This document shows positions 29,822-35,500 of a DNA stretch of 35,500 nucleotides, piece by piece. The DNA is from a virus, in IMG/VR virus record IMGVR_UViG_3300049855_000164, positions 1-35,500 of that record. One strand, written 5' to 3'. Made by a program: the position numbers and the translations under genes. Positions within the stretch are counted from its first letter, which is position 1. The number at the start of each line of letters is the position of its first letter. The notes below the pieces were generated by a model. That model was not told the DNA's origin and searched no databases. It saw nothing but the letters and a program-made list of their open reading frames with translations.

Positions 29822-30586
29822 ATGGATACCATGAACCAAGTCAAGAGCCTGATCGAACGCGGAGCGCTGTTCATCGTAAACCACTCTGGCGGGAAGGACT
29901 CGCAGGCGATGTATCTTCTGATCCGCGATCTGGTCCCAGCCAGTCAGATCGTCATCGTTCACGCCGATCTCGGCGATGTCGAGTGGACGAACGTCCAGGC
30001 TCATATCACGGCGACGACGGACGGACATCCTCTCCGCATCGCCAGCGCGATCTATAAGGACGGAACTCCAAAGTCGCTGCTGGGCGAGTGGAAGCGCAAG
30101 GGGAAGGCTCCGTCATCATCGCAGCGCTGGTGCACATCCGATCTGAAGCGCGGACCACTTGAGAAGCTGATCCGTCGCATCATGGCGGAGCGCGGATCGA
30201 CGCTCGCAGTGAACTGCATGGGACTACGCGCGCAGGAGTCTCGCGATCGCGCGAAGAAGATCCAGTTCGAGAAGCATGAGAAGCTGTCCGTCGCAGGCCG
30301 CGAAGTCTGGAGCTGGCTTCCGATCCATACCATGACGACGGTCGAAGTCTTCGCCGCGATCGCAGCTGCTGGCCAGGAACCTCATGCGATGTATGCGAAG
30401 GGTATGACGCGACTCAGCTGCTGCTTCTGCATCATGGCGAGCCAGGCGGATCTGACCACGGCCGCGAAGCTGAACCCCGAACTCTATGCGAAGTACGTCG
30501 CTATGGAGAAGGCGACTGGCTTCACTCTGCGCGCGAAGAAGGGACTCGAAGAAGTGACAGGCATCAAAGCGAAGGATATCGCATGA
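29822..30586 (+). CDS. PAPS reductase / DndC-like PP-loop protein
   Basis: AAGGAG lies 8 nt before the ATG. This 254-aa protein has the ATP-binding PP-loop SGGKDS at 22-27, HADLG at 48-52, and Cys at 104 (WCTSDLK), 132, and 200/201/203 (SCCFC), which could hold an iron-sulfur cluster. The family includes PAPS reductases and the DndC protein of DNA phosphorothioation. Phage members are common but their substrate is mostly unknown. Possible roles are sulfur chemistry on DNA or tRNA, or sulfur assimilation. No DndD/E neighbour is present. Confidence 0.8.
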   Translation: MDTMNQVKSLIERGALFIVNHSGGKDSQAMYLLIRDLVPASQIVIVHADLGDVEWTNVQAHITATTDGHPLRIASAIYKDGTPKSLLGEWKRKGKAPSSSQRWCTSDLKRGPLEKLIRRIMAERGSTLAVNCMGLRAQESRDRAKKIQFEKHEKLSVAGREVWSWLPIHTMTTVEVFAAIAAAGQEPHAMYAKGMTRLSCCFCIMASQADLTTAAKLNPELYAKYVAMEKATGFTLRAKKGLEEVTGIKAKDIA

Positions 30587-30768: not shown

Positions 30769-31121
30769 CCGAACACGACGAGCGGACCAGGCCGCCGTCC
30801 GAGATGGATGAACTTCCCGCCAGGTATGCCGATCGCAGTGAAGCCATGACGGATAGCGATCATCATGATGACGCCGCGATCGGTGGAGTTCTTAACTCGG
30901 ATATCCAGCGCATCGCCGCGGAGATGATCGCTGGTATCCGATCCCCCTTCCTTCTCGTTCCAATAAGGACAGCGCTCGGCGCTGTTAACGTGCATCGGCT
31001 TCCCGTACTCACGTCGAACTCCGTCCATAATCATCATCGTCTCGAACTGCATCGGAACTGCGTCGCAGTCCGGGCGATCGCAGCGACAGCGCAGCTCATC
31101 CGGTTTGAAAAACTGGCTCAT
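30762..31121 (-). CDS. Endolysin, peptidase M15 family
   Basis: This 119-aa protein has the complete M15 zinc motif: SDHLRGDALD (H66, D73) and FIHLG (H106). Such enzymes cut peptide cross-links or stems in peptidoglycan and are typical small phage endolysins. There is no signal peptide, so export needs a holin. It overlaps the upstream membrane gene by 4 nt (ATGA) and its end meets the convergent early operon. The N-terminal Cys-rich part (CRCDRPDC) matches the usual start of this family. Confidence 0.88.
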   Translation of the reverse strand: MSQFFKPDELRCRCDRPDCDAVPMQFETMMIMDGVRREYGKPMHVNSAERCPYWNEKEGGSDTSDHLRGDALDIRVKNSTDRGVIMMIAIRHGFTAIGIPGGKFIHLGRRPGPLVVFGY

Positions 31122-31366
31122 TTGGTTCCCTGAGCTTTGACGAGGAACTCCAGATAATACTTGATCGCCGCCTGGTCCTCGCGAACGGACTGGATCGTCT
31201 CGCGCATCAGCTTCAGCTCTTTAATGTCCTCGGAGTTCCTGCGCGTCTCCGCCTTTGTCTCAGTCATGGTATTAGACGTAGCGAATACCACTCCCGTTAG
31301 TACGAGGACTAACGAGAGAGGCATAAGCGTTCCTTCGCTGATCGCCCTCAGTCCGGTTGCGAGCAT
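31118..31366 (-). CDS. Holin-type membrane protein (82 aa)
   Basis: I choose the ATG at 31366 because GAAGG lies close upstream. An ATG at 31381 would add five residues without a site. One membrane span (TLMPLSLVLVLTGVVFAT, about 13-30) is followed by a charged coiled-coil region (NSEDIKELKLMRETIQSVRED). Together with its place directly before the endolysin this fits a holin, or an inner-membrane spanin-like protein. Confidence 0.7.
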   Translation of the reverse strand: MLATGLRAISEGTLMPLSLVLVLTGVVFATSNTMTETKAETRRNSEDIKELKLMRETIQSVREDQAAIKYYLEFLVKAQGTK

Positions 31367-31581
31367 TTTTTGCCTTCGCATTTACGCTTCAGGCGATCGC
31401 GGAGATCAGTCAGAGGCTTGCGATCGCGGAACAGTTTATAGTCATCCTTCGCCTTCATCAGCTCTGCCTCGGCTTCCTTCTTCTCGTCGTCGCTCAGATC
31501 CTTCATCAGCGCGATGATCTCCCGGATCAGCTTTACGAGCGCAGGACCGTACTGAAATATCAGGATGATGATGTTCCACAT
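31348..31581 (-). CDS. Lysis-region membrane-associated protein (77 aa)
   Basis: AAGGAGT precedes the ATG at 31581. A hydrophobic N-terminus (WNIIILIFQYGPALVKLIREIIALM) is followed by a highly charged part with Cys near the end (KCEGKKC). It overlaps the holin-type gene by 19 nt. The one-span, basic-tail layout could be a holin, antiholin or i-spanin. Two candidates for the holin role are adjacent here. Confidence 0.65.
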   Translation of the reverse strand: MWNIIILIFQYGPALVKLIREIIALMKDLSDDEKKEAEAELMKAKDDYKLFRDRKPLTDLRDRLKRKCEGKKCSQPD

Positions 31582-31592
31582 GATCCGACTCC

Positions 31593-32078
31593 TTAGTTCG
31601 AGATGAGCTGCCGGATCTTCGCCTTCTTCGCCGAGGACCAGACGCCGACAGAGGACCAGACGCGAACATGGTTCCGGTCGAGAACGATCGTCGTCGGATA
31701 GCTGGAGACGCCGAGCGACTGACCGACATCGCCTGAACAGTCGTTCAGGACTGGACCGTCAGCAGCGTAGCGCGCTAACCAGTTCGCATAGTCGGCCAGA
31801 TCGCAGTCGATGGATATCTCGACCACCTGCGCGCCTTGATCATGCCGTTCGGTCGAGAGAGCCTTCACGTTCGGAGCGTTCTCCCGGCAGTACCGGCAGC
31901 CATCAAAATAAAACTCCAGGACCATAGGCTGTCCCATGAACCCAGCGCTGTCATACCTGCCGCCTTCAGCTCCCATATCGGTAAGTGAGAAGTGGACTGG
32001 AGCAGCCTCGGCTGGCCAGGTAACGCAGGCTGCCAGCCATGGCAGGACAGCCAGGATCATCAGACGCATCATACTCAT
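31593..32078 (-). CDS. Exported thioredoxin-like protein (161 aa)
   Basis: The start is the ATG at 32078 (ATGA overlap with the 60-aa gene). A much longer frame upstream is the shadow of the Cys-rich gene. N-terminal signal sequence with a lipobox-like LAAC at 15-18 (or cleavage after AEA). The thioredoxin fold follows: VLEFYFDGCRYCREN with active-site C61-R-Y-C64, a strand/helix pattern, and cis-Pro in SSYPTT (P128). It acts outside the cytoplasm, in disulfide or thiol chemistry. It lies near a Cys-rich exported protein and a cysteine protease. Confidence 0.82.
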   Translation of the reverse strand: MSMMRLMILAVLPWLAACVTWPAEAAPVHFSLTDMGAEGGRYDSAGFMGQPMVLEFYFDGCRYCRENAPNVKALSTERHDQGAQVVEISIDCDLADYANWLARYAADGPVLNDCSGDVGQSLGVSSYPTTIVLDRNHVRVWSSVGVWSSAKKAKIRQLISN

Positions 32079-32257
32079 GGTTTGACCCTTCCCCTTTGAC
32101 GTTTGAGAGCAGCTCTCGCCAGCATCAGAAGGATCTCGTCGTCCTCGGCCATAGCCGAGATCAGGATGTTCAAGACCTCCTTCACCTGAGCGATCGACAT
32201 CGGACGCTTCAGTCCCTCGGCCAGCGTCAGCTGACGCGCGAGTTCGTTCTGGTTCAT
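32075..32257 (-). CDS. Small helical protein (60 aa)
   Basis: Overlaps both exported neighbours by 4 nt. The sequence is helical: QNELARQLTLAEGLKRP and IAQVKEVLNILISAMAEDDE, with a basic C-terminus (KRQRGRVKP). It slightly resembles the N-terminal helices of HU-type DNA-binding proteins, but the DNA-binding arms are missing. There is no signal peptide, unlike its neighbours. Function not assigned. Confidence 0.65.
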   Translation of the reverse strand: MNQNELARQLTLAEGLKRPMSIAQVKEVLNILISAMAEDDEILLMLARAALKRQRGRVKP

Positions 32258-32679
32258 AGGCAGCGCAGCCGATCGCCGAGCGTCCCGTCAGGAGCCTGGC
32301 TGTATTCGATCTGCCGACAGTCGAGCCAGAGAGTGAACGGCTTACAGCTGCCGCCGTCGCAGCCTCCGTCGCCTCCGTCGCCGCGATCGGGACCGTCTGT
32401 CCCGTCGTCGTCCCCAGCTTCTCCACATGGACACTCGCATCCATCCGGACAGTCGCAGGCTCCCATGGCGCAGTCGTCTCCGTCGCAGCCGTTCTCGCAG
32501 CAGGCAGCGCCAGGACACTCGCAGTCCGAGCAGATGCAGGTTCCATCATCGTAACATTCGCAGCTGTTACAGACGCAGCCGTCCTCGGCTGGCTCATCGG
32601 CGACAGCCTTCCTCTGGCTGAAGTCGCCTCCACAGCCGACAGTGATCGCGAGCAGGAACATCGATAGAAGGAACTTCAT
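32254..32679 (-). CDS. Exported Cys-rich protein (141 aa, 22 Cys)
   Basis: GGGGAGGC precedes the ATG at 32679. A signal sequence (KFLLSMFLLAITVGCGG) has Cys16 at a lipobox-like place, so it may be a lipoprotein. Residues 35-112 hold 18 Cys in CxC and CxxC patterns with Asp/Gly/Glu between them. A Gly/Asp-rich linker and a short C-terminal part with two more Cys follow. It looks like a disulfide-rich or metal-binding exported protein. I know of no family match. The thioredoxin-like gene is two genes downstream. Confidence 0.78.
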   Translation of the reverse strand: MKFLLSMFLLAITVGCGGDFSQRKAVADEPAEDGCVCNSCECYDDGTCICSDCECPGAACCENGCDGDDCAMGACDCPDGCECPCGEAGDDDGTDGPDRGDGGDGGCDGGSCKPFTLWLDCRQIEYSQAPDGTLGDRLRCL

Positions 32680-32691
32680 CGGAGCCTCCCC

Positions 32692-32874
32692 TTATTTGCG
32701 ACGATGGATGAAGCGGAAGATCGTTCCCGCCTTTGGGATACGCGTAGTGATACGGCCGCGCAGTCCGTGGCGGACGCTCAGATAGTCGCCGTCCTCGGCT
32801 GTCTCTTTGACGAACCAGCAGCGACGGAAGAAAATGTTATGTGCAGTTTTATAGACGACGCGCTTAAGGACCAT
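32692..32874 (-). CDS. Small basic protein (60 aa)
   Basis: GGGGGA precedes the ATG at 32874. A basic beta-like protein (LKRVVYKTAHNIFFRRCWFVKET, then GRITTRIPKAGTIFRFIHRRK). It lies between the protease and the Cys-rich gene and separated from the protease by a hairpin. Function not assigned. Confidence 0.6.
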   Translation of the reverse strand: MVLKRVVYKTAHNIFFRRCWFVKETAEDGDYLSVRHGLRGRITTRIPKAGTIFRFIHRRK

Positions 32875-32893
32875 GGCGTTCCCCCTGATGAAG

Positions 32894-32914
32894 GGACGCC
32901 ATGGATAGGCGTCC
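32894..32914 (-). promoter_or_regulatory. Hairpin after the protease gene
   Basis: GGACGCC and GGCGTCC (7-bp perfect stem, 7-nt loop) lie 2 bp after the protease stop and 20 bp before the start of the next gene. It could end or process the transcript, but no U-run follows. The loop-side sequence repeats part of the next start region (GCCATGG). Confidence 0.4.
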
Positions 32915-32916
32915 GG

Positions 32917-33906
32917 TTACTGGCGAATACAGGCTTTAAATGAGTCGTATTTTTCGGAGCAGCTCTGCCTTTTATTATACTGCGAGGAAGCGCTATCAAC
33001 AATGCAGTCGGCCAGCTCCATATAAAGCGCTGGACAGTCAACAGGATCAGGCGGGTTAGTCGGCTGAACCTCGAAGAACAGAGCAGCGTCTCCGGCGGAA
33101 CTGGCGAGCCGGTTACAGCCTTGCTTCGACCAGGCGAAGCCTCCGAGTCCCCAGCTGGTTCCCCAGCTGTTCGCGATCAGGAACTCGTATCCTCCGCCAC
33201 TGGTCGCAGGACGGTATCCGACCAGAGTAACCATGTGGTTTATCGAGCGCGATCCGCAGCCAGTGATAACGCCAGCGCTGTTCGGCGCAAAGCTGCCGCC
33301 TGCCGCGACGGTAACGGCGAGCGCTCCCTTAAGATAGATCGCCGCGCGCAGATCGTCAGCGGTCGGACTGGTCGAGCTGTTCGCTCCGACCATGCTCCAG
33401 CTCACAGGCTGCGATGCCTTTGGCTTCTGACAGCTGTATCGAGTCGATGCTCGGTAAGGGCAGTCAGCTTCGAGAGACTGACCGTTCTCGACTTCGTATC
33501 TGCCATCCATGAACCCGCCGTTACAGCCGTAAGCAGAGCTATCATTGACGAGCGTATCCTGCTCGGCCAGATCCAGCACGAGGCTGTTACCAGCTTTGAG
33601 CCAGGCCGACTCATGCGCTTTGGTTCGAGCGAAGCTCCAGCATGAACCGCATGATCCCTGATTAACGATAGGCGTCGTCAGTCCATGATCTCGCAGATCG
33701 TAGCTGTCCGGGAGGGAAGCGATCTGGTCAGGAGTCGGCTTCCAGAACGATGCTCCGAGTGGACCGCCGTCGCGCTTACCGAGATAGCCGGTCGAGTAAC
33801 GATGTCCTCTGATGACGGTCGATAGTGAATCAGGAGCAGCAGCATAGGACTCGCTCGCAGCGAACAGCGTCGCGGCAGCGAGAAGGATCGAACTGATGAA
33901 CTTCAT
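32917..33906 (-). CDS. Secreted papain-family (C1A) cysteine protease with twin CX9C tail
   Basis: This 329-aa protein has a signal peptide (about 1-23, ending SYAAA) and a short pro-region. The papain core is complete: Q83 and catalytic C89 in QGSCGSCWSF, the CNGG loop near 128-131, H224 in INHMVTLVGY and N246 in IANSWGTSWG. The C-terminal 40 residues carry C291-x9-C301 and C316-x9-C326, the twin CX9C pattern of disulfide-bonded helical hairpins. It should act in the periplasm or outside. C1A proteases are rare in phages. Possible roles are lysis, envelope protein cleavage or virion processing. Confidence 0.9.
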   Translation of the reverse strand: MKFISSILLAAATLFAASESYAAAPDSLSTVIRGHRYSTGYLGKRDGGPLGASFWKPTPDQIASLPDSYDLRDHGLTTPIVNQGSCGSCWSFARTKAHESAWLKAGNSLVLDLAEQDTLVNDSSAYGCNGGFMDGRYEVENGQSLEADCPYRASTRYSCQKPKASQPVSWSMVGANSSTSPTADDLRAAIYLKGALAVTVAAGGSFAPNSAGVITGCGSRSINHMVTLVGYRPATSGGGYEFLIANSWGTSWGLGGFAWSKQGCNRLASSAGDAALFFEVQPTNPPDPVDCPALYMELADCIVDSASSQYNKRQSCSEKYDSFKACIRQ

Positions 33907-33976: not shown

Positions 33977-34258
33977 TCAGGCAGGCTTCAGCTTCTTCAG
34001 AGCTTCGCCTGCGGCGACGAACTTACTCGCCGTCTGAGCGGAGCGATCGATCAGCTTATCGATCTCCATGACATCCAGATCGCGCAGCTCGCCGACGACT
34101 TGATCGACGCCTTGAACCGCTTTAACCATGGCTTTGATCGGAGCCATCGCATGGCGCAGATCGAGAAGATTGATCTTCCCGTCATCGCACATTTTGACCA
34201 GAGAGTCGGCAGTCGCATCGGCCGCATCGTAAACTTCTAAGACTTCTTTGAGTTCCAT
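33977..34258 (-). CDS. Unknown helical protein (93 aa)
   Basis: An all-helical protein: LKEVLEVYDAADATADSLVKM, then LRHAMAPIKAMVKAVQGV and DKLIDRSAQTASKFVAAGEAL. One Cys. It has no membrane segment and no metal motif. It follows the small membrane genes of the tail-end cassette after 49 bp. The regular heptad-like spacing suggests an oligomer. Function not assigned. Confidence 0.7.
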   Translation of the reverse strand: MELKEVLEVYDAADATADSLVKMCDDGKINLLDLRHAMAPIKAMVKAVQGVDQVVGELRDLDVMEIDKLIDRSAQTASKFVAAGEALKKLKPA

Positions 34259-34451: not shown

Positions 34452-34633
34452 AGCCGGTCGAGATACTTCAGGCGCTCGCGACGGATACCTTCAGCCTCCA
34501 GACTGGAGGCGATCACATAAGCCAGCGTCAGGAACGCAGCAACCAAAGCAGCGAGCGCCATCTTCAGAGACTGAAGACAGACAGAGACGATCATCATAAC
34601 GATGGCAACCAGGATCATTGCGACTACTTCCAT
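34448..34633 (-). CDS. Small two-span membrane protein, copy 2 (61 aa)
   Basis: The complete copy of the gene cut off at 1-133. Two hydrophobic spans (about 3-20 and 24-43) are joined by a short QSLK turn, and the C-terminus is charged (EGIRRERLKYLDRL). This is the layout of a class II holin. It overlaps the 96-aa gene by 10 nt. Its true partner would be the endolysin at 30762, though other membrane genes lie nearer to that. Confidence 0.7.
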   Translation of the reverse strand: MEVVAMILVAIVMMIVSVCLQSLKMALAALVAAFLTLAYVIASSLEAEGIRRERLKYLDRL

Positions 34634-34914
34634 CGCCAGATCTCCTTCTTAAAATCTTCATCCAGCTCCAGGCTGTTCTGGCAGTGGTCCTGAGATCCCA
34701 TGATGGCATTGAGGAACGGCTCCAGGATGAACTGGCAGAACCTGTTACCTGCGATCCTGGCGCGTGCGGTACGCGAGCAGATCGACTCATCGGGATCTCC
34801 TCCGAGGATCGCCGATATAGTCTGAGACAGCGACAGTCCGACGTTATAGACGTACTGAACCAGAGGACGAGCTTCGCCTCGGGTTACTCCTCCGCCTTCA
34901 AAGTAACCGCCCAT
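34624..34914 (-). CDS. Conserved 96-aa tail-region protein, copy 2
   Basis: It has the same length and sequence as the gene at 124-414, except I19V and V33I. The surrounding DNA differs far more outside this gene, so selection or recent recombination keeps this block uniform. It starts at the stop of the 150-aa gene and overlaps the membrane gene. Function unknown. Confidence 0.85.
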   Translation of the reverse strand: MGGYFEGGGVTRGEARPLVQYVYNVGLSLSQTISAILGGDPDESICSRTARARIAGNRFCQFILEPFLNAIMGSQDHCQNSLELDEDFKKEIWRWK

Positions 34915-35366
34915 TATATTTTTGCTCCTTCGTTAAATAGCTGATCGATCTGCTCATCGGATAAGCCGAGCATCGGAGCCATGGCGACGAGCAGTGGATC
35001 GTCCCGATAGAACTCGCTGGCATACTCCCATGAAATAGTAGCGATCGAGCGCATAGGCTCATCCAGATTCTCCAGCATGGCGGAGATCTGATCCAGGCTG
35101 ATGCCTCCTCCGACCATAGCCAGACGGATCTGCCGCGCCGTGATGATACGAGGAACCTGGGAGATACCATGCCAGGCGTCGAACTCAGCCTGATGCGCTG
35201 CGAGATACGCCTCATAGCCTTCTGAACTCAGAACAGTCCAGCCGTTAGATCCGTACTCATCAGCCTGCGCTTCTTCGATAGAAGCCATCTGCCACGGCCA
35301 GACGTTAGGGATGCCGAAAGGCTTCTGATCATCGGGACAGTCGGCGAAAGTCTTATATGCGATCAT
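34914..35366 (-). CDS. Tail-tip accessory protein (150 aa), copy 2
   Basis: Homologue of 414-866 with about 26 differences. Twelve lie between residues 30 and 55, while the RQIRLAMVG to LDQIS and EYASEFYRDDPLLVAMAPMLGL blocks are almost unchanged. The variable N-terminal part may bind a partner that also varies. It overlaps the upstream gene by 4 nt. Confidence 0.8.
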   Translation of the reverse strand: MIAYKTFADCPDDQKPFGIPNVWPWQMASIEEAQADEYGSNGWTVLSSEGYEAYLAAHQAEFDAWHGISQVPRIITARQIRLAMVGGGISLDQISAMLENLDEPMRSIATISWEYASEFYRDDPLLVAMAPMLGLSDEQIDQLFNEGAKI

Positions 35367-35500
35367 GCGAACTCCCTCACTAGGATGCAGCTGCCGACAC
35401 CGATAGTTACCTGGCTGGCGTTCACTTCGGATCTGAACTGAGGCGTCAGCGTTCCGCCAGTGGTACAGACGAAGACTCCATCTATGCGGCAGATATAATC
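35363..35500 (-). CDS. Tail-tip protein, copy 2 (5' part beyond window)
   Basis: The last 45 codons and stop of a second copy of the 228-aa gene. The translated end (from DYICR to REFA) differs from copy 1 only at M to I and V to A. The gene continues past base 35500. It shows that the repeated cassette extends into the larger tail genes. Confidence 0.8.
   Translation of the reverse strand, partial: DYICRIDGVFVCTTGGTLTPQFRSEVNASQVTIGVGSCILVREFA

Follow-up and report, generated by a model that had tools for sequence, protein, structure and literature searches.

An exported papain-like cysteine protease, a Cys-rich lipoprotein and a lipoprotein redoxin form, as judged by comparison with related phages, one inherited unit within the lysis run of a tailed phage. 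This phage is represented by a 35.5-kb viral entry in IMG/VR, for a unit genome of ~34.5 kb, and the window analysed here is that whole stretch of 35,500 nucleotides. The segment from 33906 to 30762 is quite possibly an extended lysis/egress operon, in which the exported protease would be added to a holin-like protein and an endolysin, the pair made of the Cys protein and the redoxin being accessory. A lysis role for the protease is suggested by the co-directional gene run, by the recurrent adjacency to endolysins in other phages, and by the retention of signal segments and of the catalytic set.

A sequence-only reading of this DNA had recognised three genes on one strand, for a complete C1A protease, a protein with 22 Cys and a thioredoxin-like protein with a CxxC motif and a cis-Pro, as well as two small genes between them. 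All five are real and were found in place, the three larger ones within 33906–31593 on the minus strand, and the three protein descriptions held. The signal sequences had to be described differently: all three products look exported, but those of the Cys protein and of the redoxin are of the lipoprotein type, with lipoboxes, and not plain secretion signals. The redoxin reading frame had been listed from 32633, and the true gene extends from the ATG at 32078 to 31593. The trio is located between the tail genes and the lysis genes (Table 1). From H93 to the endolysin, the successive intergenic gaps are +70, +42, +12, −4, −4, +11, −34 and −4 bases, values typical of an operon with translational coupling, and no internal promoter or terminator was detected above chance in this gene run. 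An endolysin and a holin-like gene thus lie in one co-directional run, as expected of a lysis cassette, the holin function being predicted from the size, topology and place of the protein. The latter shows weak similarity to small membrane genes beside C1A proteases in two other phages (L034 and L009). Neither the small basic protein nor the membrane/coil protein has a family match in Pfam or PHROG.

Table 1. Genes of the run from H93 to the endolysin, in order of transcription.
Feature	Coordinates	Strand	Evidence or remark
H93, 93-aa helical protein	33977..34258	-	homologs also present on various other phage contigs with C1A
Exported papain-family (C1A) cysteine protease, 329 aa	32917..33906	-	PF00112, catalytic set, AF2, signal peptide
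Small basic protein, 60 aa, pI 11.5	32692..32874	-	82% identical in L002, dN 0.14
Cys-rich lipoprotein, 141 aa, 22 Cys	32254..32679	-	lipobox ITVGC; L002, L003 orthologs
Small helical protein, 60 aa, pI 10	32075..32257	-	50-54% identity with L002; missing from L003
Lipoprotein redoxin, TlpA/ResA/DsbE type, 161 aa	31593..32078	-	PF08534, CRYC, cis-Pro, lipobox LAAC
Small holin-like membrane protein, 77 aa, with a hydrophobic helix at the N-terminus	31348..31581	-	63% identical in L002
Membrane segment + coiled-coil protein, 87 aa (spanin- or holin-like)	31118..31381	-	sequence
M15 peptidase endolysin, 119 aa	30762..31121	-	PF08291 1.4e-18; PHROG 894 endolysin 1.9e-22

The protease matches the Pfam family Peptidase_C1 (PF00112, E=9.5e-37), and its catalytic set is complete, with C89, H224, N246 and the oxyanion Gln, Q83. 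Its AF2 model (pLDDT 79.7) is related by Foldseek to cathepsins L and K with a probability of 1.00. Since both the match and the fold are those of papain C1A proper, assignment as an NlpC/CHAP-type peptidoglycan hydrolase was rejected. The signal peptide is MKFISSILLAAATLFAASESYAA, and a hydrophobic signal-like N-terminal segment is present in 24/24 aligned phage proteases. Among these homologs, Q83 and C89 are invariant, H224 and N246 are at least 90% conserved, and nearly all keep the catalytic set, except the truncated protease of L004. The fold, the Gln-Cys-His-Asn set and secretion are common to the phage enzyme and to papain C1A proteases such as cathepsins L and K and the bacterial and giant-virus C1A; it differs from these by its pro-region and its tail, and in that its gene belongs to a tailed phage and lies next to lysis genes. 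No I29 inhibitor pro-domain was matched in a Pfam scan with E up to 1. V-CATH, the baculovirus enzyme, has a cathepsin L-type pro-domain, and membership of the V-CATH/cathepsin L-like zymogens was rejected because I29 is missing. The pro-region is short and carries a TGY motif, which is largely conserved in the phage homologs and replaced by TGL or similar in some. At the C-terminus (residues 290–329, window 32917–33036), a twin CX9C helical hairpin is predicted, with C291/C301 and C316/C326; each of its two predicted helices begins at a CX9C Cys and the spacing is exact. This geometry is like that of the mitochondrial CHCH proteins, and no CHCH domain was matched by Pfam in the tail. The twin CX9C is conserved in L002; in L003, the tail reads as Ig-like instead, and the L004/L163 protease has a Gly-Pro linker followed by a short Cys-bounded segment.

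The Cys protein contains two CxCxxCxC units, followed by an acidic Gly/Asp tail, and its Cys core aligns with that of the L002 and L003 orthologs. It has no match in Pfam, PHROG or NCBIfam. Its CxC and CxCxxCxC spacing is shared with metallothioneins, from which it differs as an exported lipoprotein with an acidic tail; the L003 protein, compared with all PDB sequences, retrieved metallothioneins only, at a non-significant E=0.22. With this value, and with no Pfam match at E up to 10, membership of the metallothioneins was not accepted. The redoxin matches Redoxin (PF08534, 3.7e-13) and AhpC-TSA (2e-12) in Pfam, and its CRYC motif is accompanied by SYPTT, which holds the cis-Pro. It is nearest to ResA/TlpA/DsbE according to NCBIfam and PDB matches, those of NCBIfam being all below cut-offs; its AlphaFold model, built from three sequences, reached a pLDDT of 57, and the classification was made by sequence families only. 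TlpA/ResA proteins form a thiol-disulfide reductase family, whose members reduce periplasmic disulfides with electrons from DsbD/CcdA. The domain, the CxxC, the membrane anchoring and export are common to the phage protein and the TlpA/ResA/DsbE redoxins, whereas the former is lipid-anchored, phage-encoded and part of a distinct subfamily that occurs mainly in the Oligoflexia/Bdellovibrionota phylum. Both lipoprotein signal peptides (ITVGC in the Cys protein, LAAC in the redoxin) lack Asp at +2, so that outer-membrane anchoring of both is predicted from the E. coli rules. The trio has no defence-system match in PADLOC, and a defence-system reading was dropped on that account.

The sequence-only reading had also proposed a joint system and suggested looking for the same gene set in other phage contigs. 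A set of 2.9 million viral contigs was scanned, and the trio was present in two further phages, L002 and L003. The pattern that would have spoken against this proposal, genes occurring independently at random positions, was not observed: a redoxin-alignment scan and an independent DNA-pattern scan for the Cys core returned the identical two contigs, both with the protease and with unchanged gene order; this convergence argues that the trio is a unit. The three genes are adjacent in 3/3 redoxin-bearing phages, which is not expected by chance, and neither the redoxin nor the Cys protein was seen without the protease in the scanned contigs. L002 keeps the five genes along with the holin-like and membrane/coil genes, and its endolysin is a CHAP, not an M15. 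In L003, only the trio is found, contiguous at about 40–52% identity despite different surroundings; an M15-like gene lies nearby on the opposite strand and a tyrosine integrase is close to the trio, so that its expression may differ there. The protease, the basic protein, the Cys protein and the redoxin of the window are 71–82% identical to their L002 counterparts, compared with about 30–45% for most other shared genes; H93 (52%), the 60-aa helical protein (50%) and the holin-like protein (63%) are less conserved. For the four best conserved genes, dN is 0.14–0.24 and dS is saturated or >1, which indicates real genes under purifying selection. The idea of a joint system is right for inheritance and too strong for function: one exported, recurring unit is inherited, but the protease is generally independent of the pair, as seen in L004, in L009 and at most loci.

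A protease-alignment scan found exported C1A proteases in 54 viral contigs, most of which have no redoxin and Cys protein. With the window included, grouping at 70% identity gives 41 protease clusters, and in at least 17/41 an endolysin lies within about 3 kb (P ~6e-6 against a rough chance level of 13%, ~1e-3 at a level of 20%). No endolysin was seen near the protease in the other 24/41 clusters, where the flanking DNA is often truncated and the search covered only part of the endolysin families. The endolysins belong to five unrelated types (M15, CHAP, Amidase_2, GH24 and GH108-like); as their type varies while the protease stays, it is the neighbourhood that is conserved, not one ancestral lysin. 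In L004 and L009, the protease is followed by a small membrane (holin-like) gene and then by the endolysin, with nothing between, and these contigs hold neither a redoxin anywhere nor the Cys protein; the link between protease and lysis is therefore broader than the Cys pair. The L004 contig is circular, the remainder of the protease gene being found at its beginning (L163, base 2). In L026, the small membrane gene is followed by an amidase encoded on the other strand. Homology among the holin-like small genes beside C1A is weak.

Other partners recur at these loci. A secreted family of about 230–280 aa, here called protein X, is encoded beside C1A in 16 loci from at least nine clusters (for example L034:724–1515, L022:7053–7886 and L024:6810–7565) and also on a few contigs with no C1A gene seen nearby; it has no match in Pfam, PHROG or NCBIfam. 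In seven loci (L043:6337–7158, L046:5346–6176, L047, L048, L050, L051 and L053), an amidase precedes C1A and a secreted HExxH-like protein (CHELGH/CHEIGH) directly follows it, so that two exported proteases may possibly stand by an endolysin. The papers searched offered no description of phage-encoded exported papain proteases, or of Bdellovibrio-phage lysis with cysteine proteases; databases hold similar proteins of uncultured Caudovirales, labelled Peptidase_C1.

The core of the proposed operon would consist of the exported papain-like protease, the small holin-like membrane protein and the endolysin, which are adjacent in other phages too. Late in infection, the protease would be secreted to the periplasm, where, once the holin triggers or afterwards, it could cleave proteins of the envelope or of cell debris, thereby freeing the virions. 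The accessory pair, which in this lineage sits between the protease and the holin-like gene and appears always to travel with the protease, would be lipid-anchored, probably in the outer membrane. This association of a TlpA/ResA-type redoxin with a metallothionein-patterned Cys protein is probably a lineage-specific accessory, for which thiol or metal control seems the most likely role. A redox partnership of the redoxin with the protease and/or the Cys protein is plausible: by reducing disulfides in the otherwise oxidising periplasm, the redoxin might keep the Cys protein, as a metal or thiol buffer, capable of binding metal, and the active-site Cys of the protease free, which would let the latter be active at the outer membrane when needed. 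A wider reading, which we regard as doubtful, is that exported proteases are a regular part of the lysis cassette, beside holin and endolysin, in a class of tailed phages whose hosts are mostly uncultivated; their partners would be lineage-specific (the redox/metal lipoprotein pair, protein X, or the secreted metalloprotease-like protein), and in the present case the protease would be gated by thiol chemistry that the phage itself provides in the periplasm.

Phage lysis is described with three classes of proteins, namely holins, endolysins, and spanins or outer-membrane disruptors. Classical holin–endolysin–spanin cassettes share with the phage run their place, small membrane genes, an endolysin and an outer-membrane lipoprotein, whereas the phage run is set apart by its exported protease, its redoxin and its 22-Cys lipoprotein. 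No spanin pair was identified in the run and no short o-spanin was recognised; the protein encoded at 31118–31381 has a membrane segment and a coil, and may be spanin- or holin-like. Two-component spanins need periplasmic disulfides (PMC6139136), which provides a precedent for redox-dependent lysis proteins; o-spanins have at most 4 Cys (PMC6139136), a range that does not include the Cys lipoprotein. In baculoviruses, which infect insects, the papain-type protease V-CATH and the chitinase ChiA, a polysaccharide hydrolase, aid the spread of progeny and liquefaction of the host (PMC9965964). The likeness is one of role only, the host being here bacterial and the partner hydrolases endolysins. 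A recurrent exported papain-type protease in the lysis run would add proteolysis to the lysis classes, be a phage counterpart of the protease-plus-hydrolase release of baculoviruses, and suggest an exit route for phages whose hosts have an unusual envelope or lifestyle. The recurrence of exported proteases in phage lysis regions, beyond the coordinates of the trio, is the most interesting aspect.

Other functions were considered for these genes. Superinfection exclusion, in which a receptor in the outer membrane of the infected cell would be blocked or degraded by the lipoproteins, and possibly by the protease, in the manner of T5 Llp or Cor, seems unlikely. It is common for exclusion proteins to be small lipoproteins of the outer membrane whose genes lie beside tail-tip or receptor-binding genes (PMC9586334), as for the two found here between tail and lysis genes, and the protease could strip receptors from debris; such proteins are however typically expressed early (PMC9586334), while the trio belongs to a strand run joined to lysis genes. 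The phage lipoproteins are also Cys-rich and have no detected similarity to known families of such proteins, T5 Llp/Cor included (Pfam, PHROG, PADLOC), and exclusion leaves unexplained the proximity of protease and endolysin in lipoprotein-free phages. This recurrent adjacency, together with the embedding of the window and L002 genes in the lysis run with overlaps, also weighs against a moron, or lysogenic conversion cassette, which would serve host fitness (exported protease, redox, metal), from a prophage or during infection, and not lysis. The integrase near the L003 trio, a redoxin whose subfamily is characteristic of the probable host phylum and the metal-binding-like spacing of the Cys protein are in its favour, but a search of 58 genomes of that phylum with terminase and protein X queries, a weak test, found no prophage copy, and we consider this explanation improbable.

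The genes might also be neighbours only, with the protease as a lysis gene and the Cys protein and redoxin jointly serving another target, such as protection against metal or oxidative stress, or the assembly of a disulfide-rich protein. The many proteases that occur without the pair would agree with this, as would the bacterial redoxins of the subfamily, which have no C1A neighbour in stretches of ~3 kb. Against it, the pair has not been met apart from the protease, and the L003 trio has remained contiguous in changed surroundings at its low level of identity; mere neighbourhood is thus rather unlikely. A virion-associated or maturation protease, as the sequence-only reading had envisaged, would fit a gene that adjoins tail genes, but capsid maturation takes place in the cytoplasm and the signal peptide, with its signal-like counterparts in the phage homologs, makes such a role very improbable.

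The last 995 bases of the window (34506–35500) repeat positions 6–1000 at 89% identity, so the assembly is either circularly permuted or strain-chimeric, with two strains joined. The search for relatives among cultured phages gave a sole match, to an unannotated faecal contig of 5.9 kb (25%); the terminase likeness to cultured phages being only ~25%, no host can be called by relatedness. The terminase frame of L003 (L003:13931–16324, 797 aa) has a large internal insertion with an intein-like look. In the redoxin tree, the phage proteins form a single clade (support 95/93), which joins redoxins of the phylum that includes the Pseudobacteriovorax and Oligoflexales genomes; a 100/100 branch separates it from the best Pseudomonadota matches, and long branches limit finer placement. 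At E up to 1e-15, the redoxin was matched in 12/58 genomes of the Oligoflexia/Bdellovibrionota phylum, in 4/398 of the phylum to which a Contendobacter genome belongs (Pseudomonadota), and in none of 189 Myxococcota and 199 Planctomycetota; by these counts, the subfamily is concentrated in the first. The best guess for the host is thus a member of the Oligoflexia/Bdellovibrionota phylum, some of whose bacteria prey on other bacteria, with the reservation that gene transfer could mislead such an affinity. At 29822–30586, the window also encodes a PAPS-reductase-like protein that matches the BrxP, SspD and DndC models and is possibly related to DNA modification or defence.
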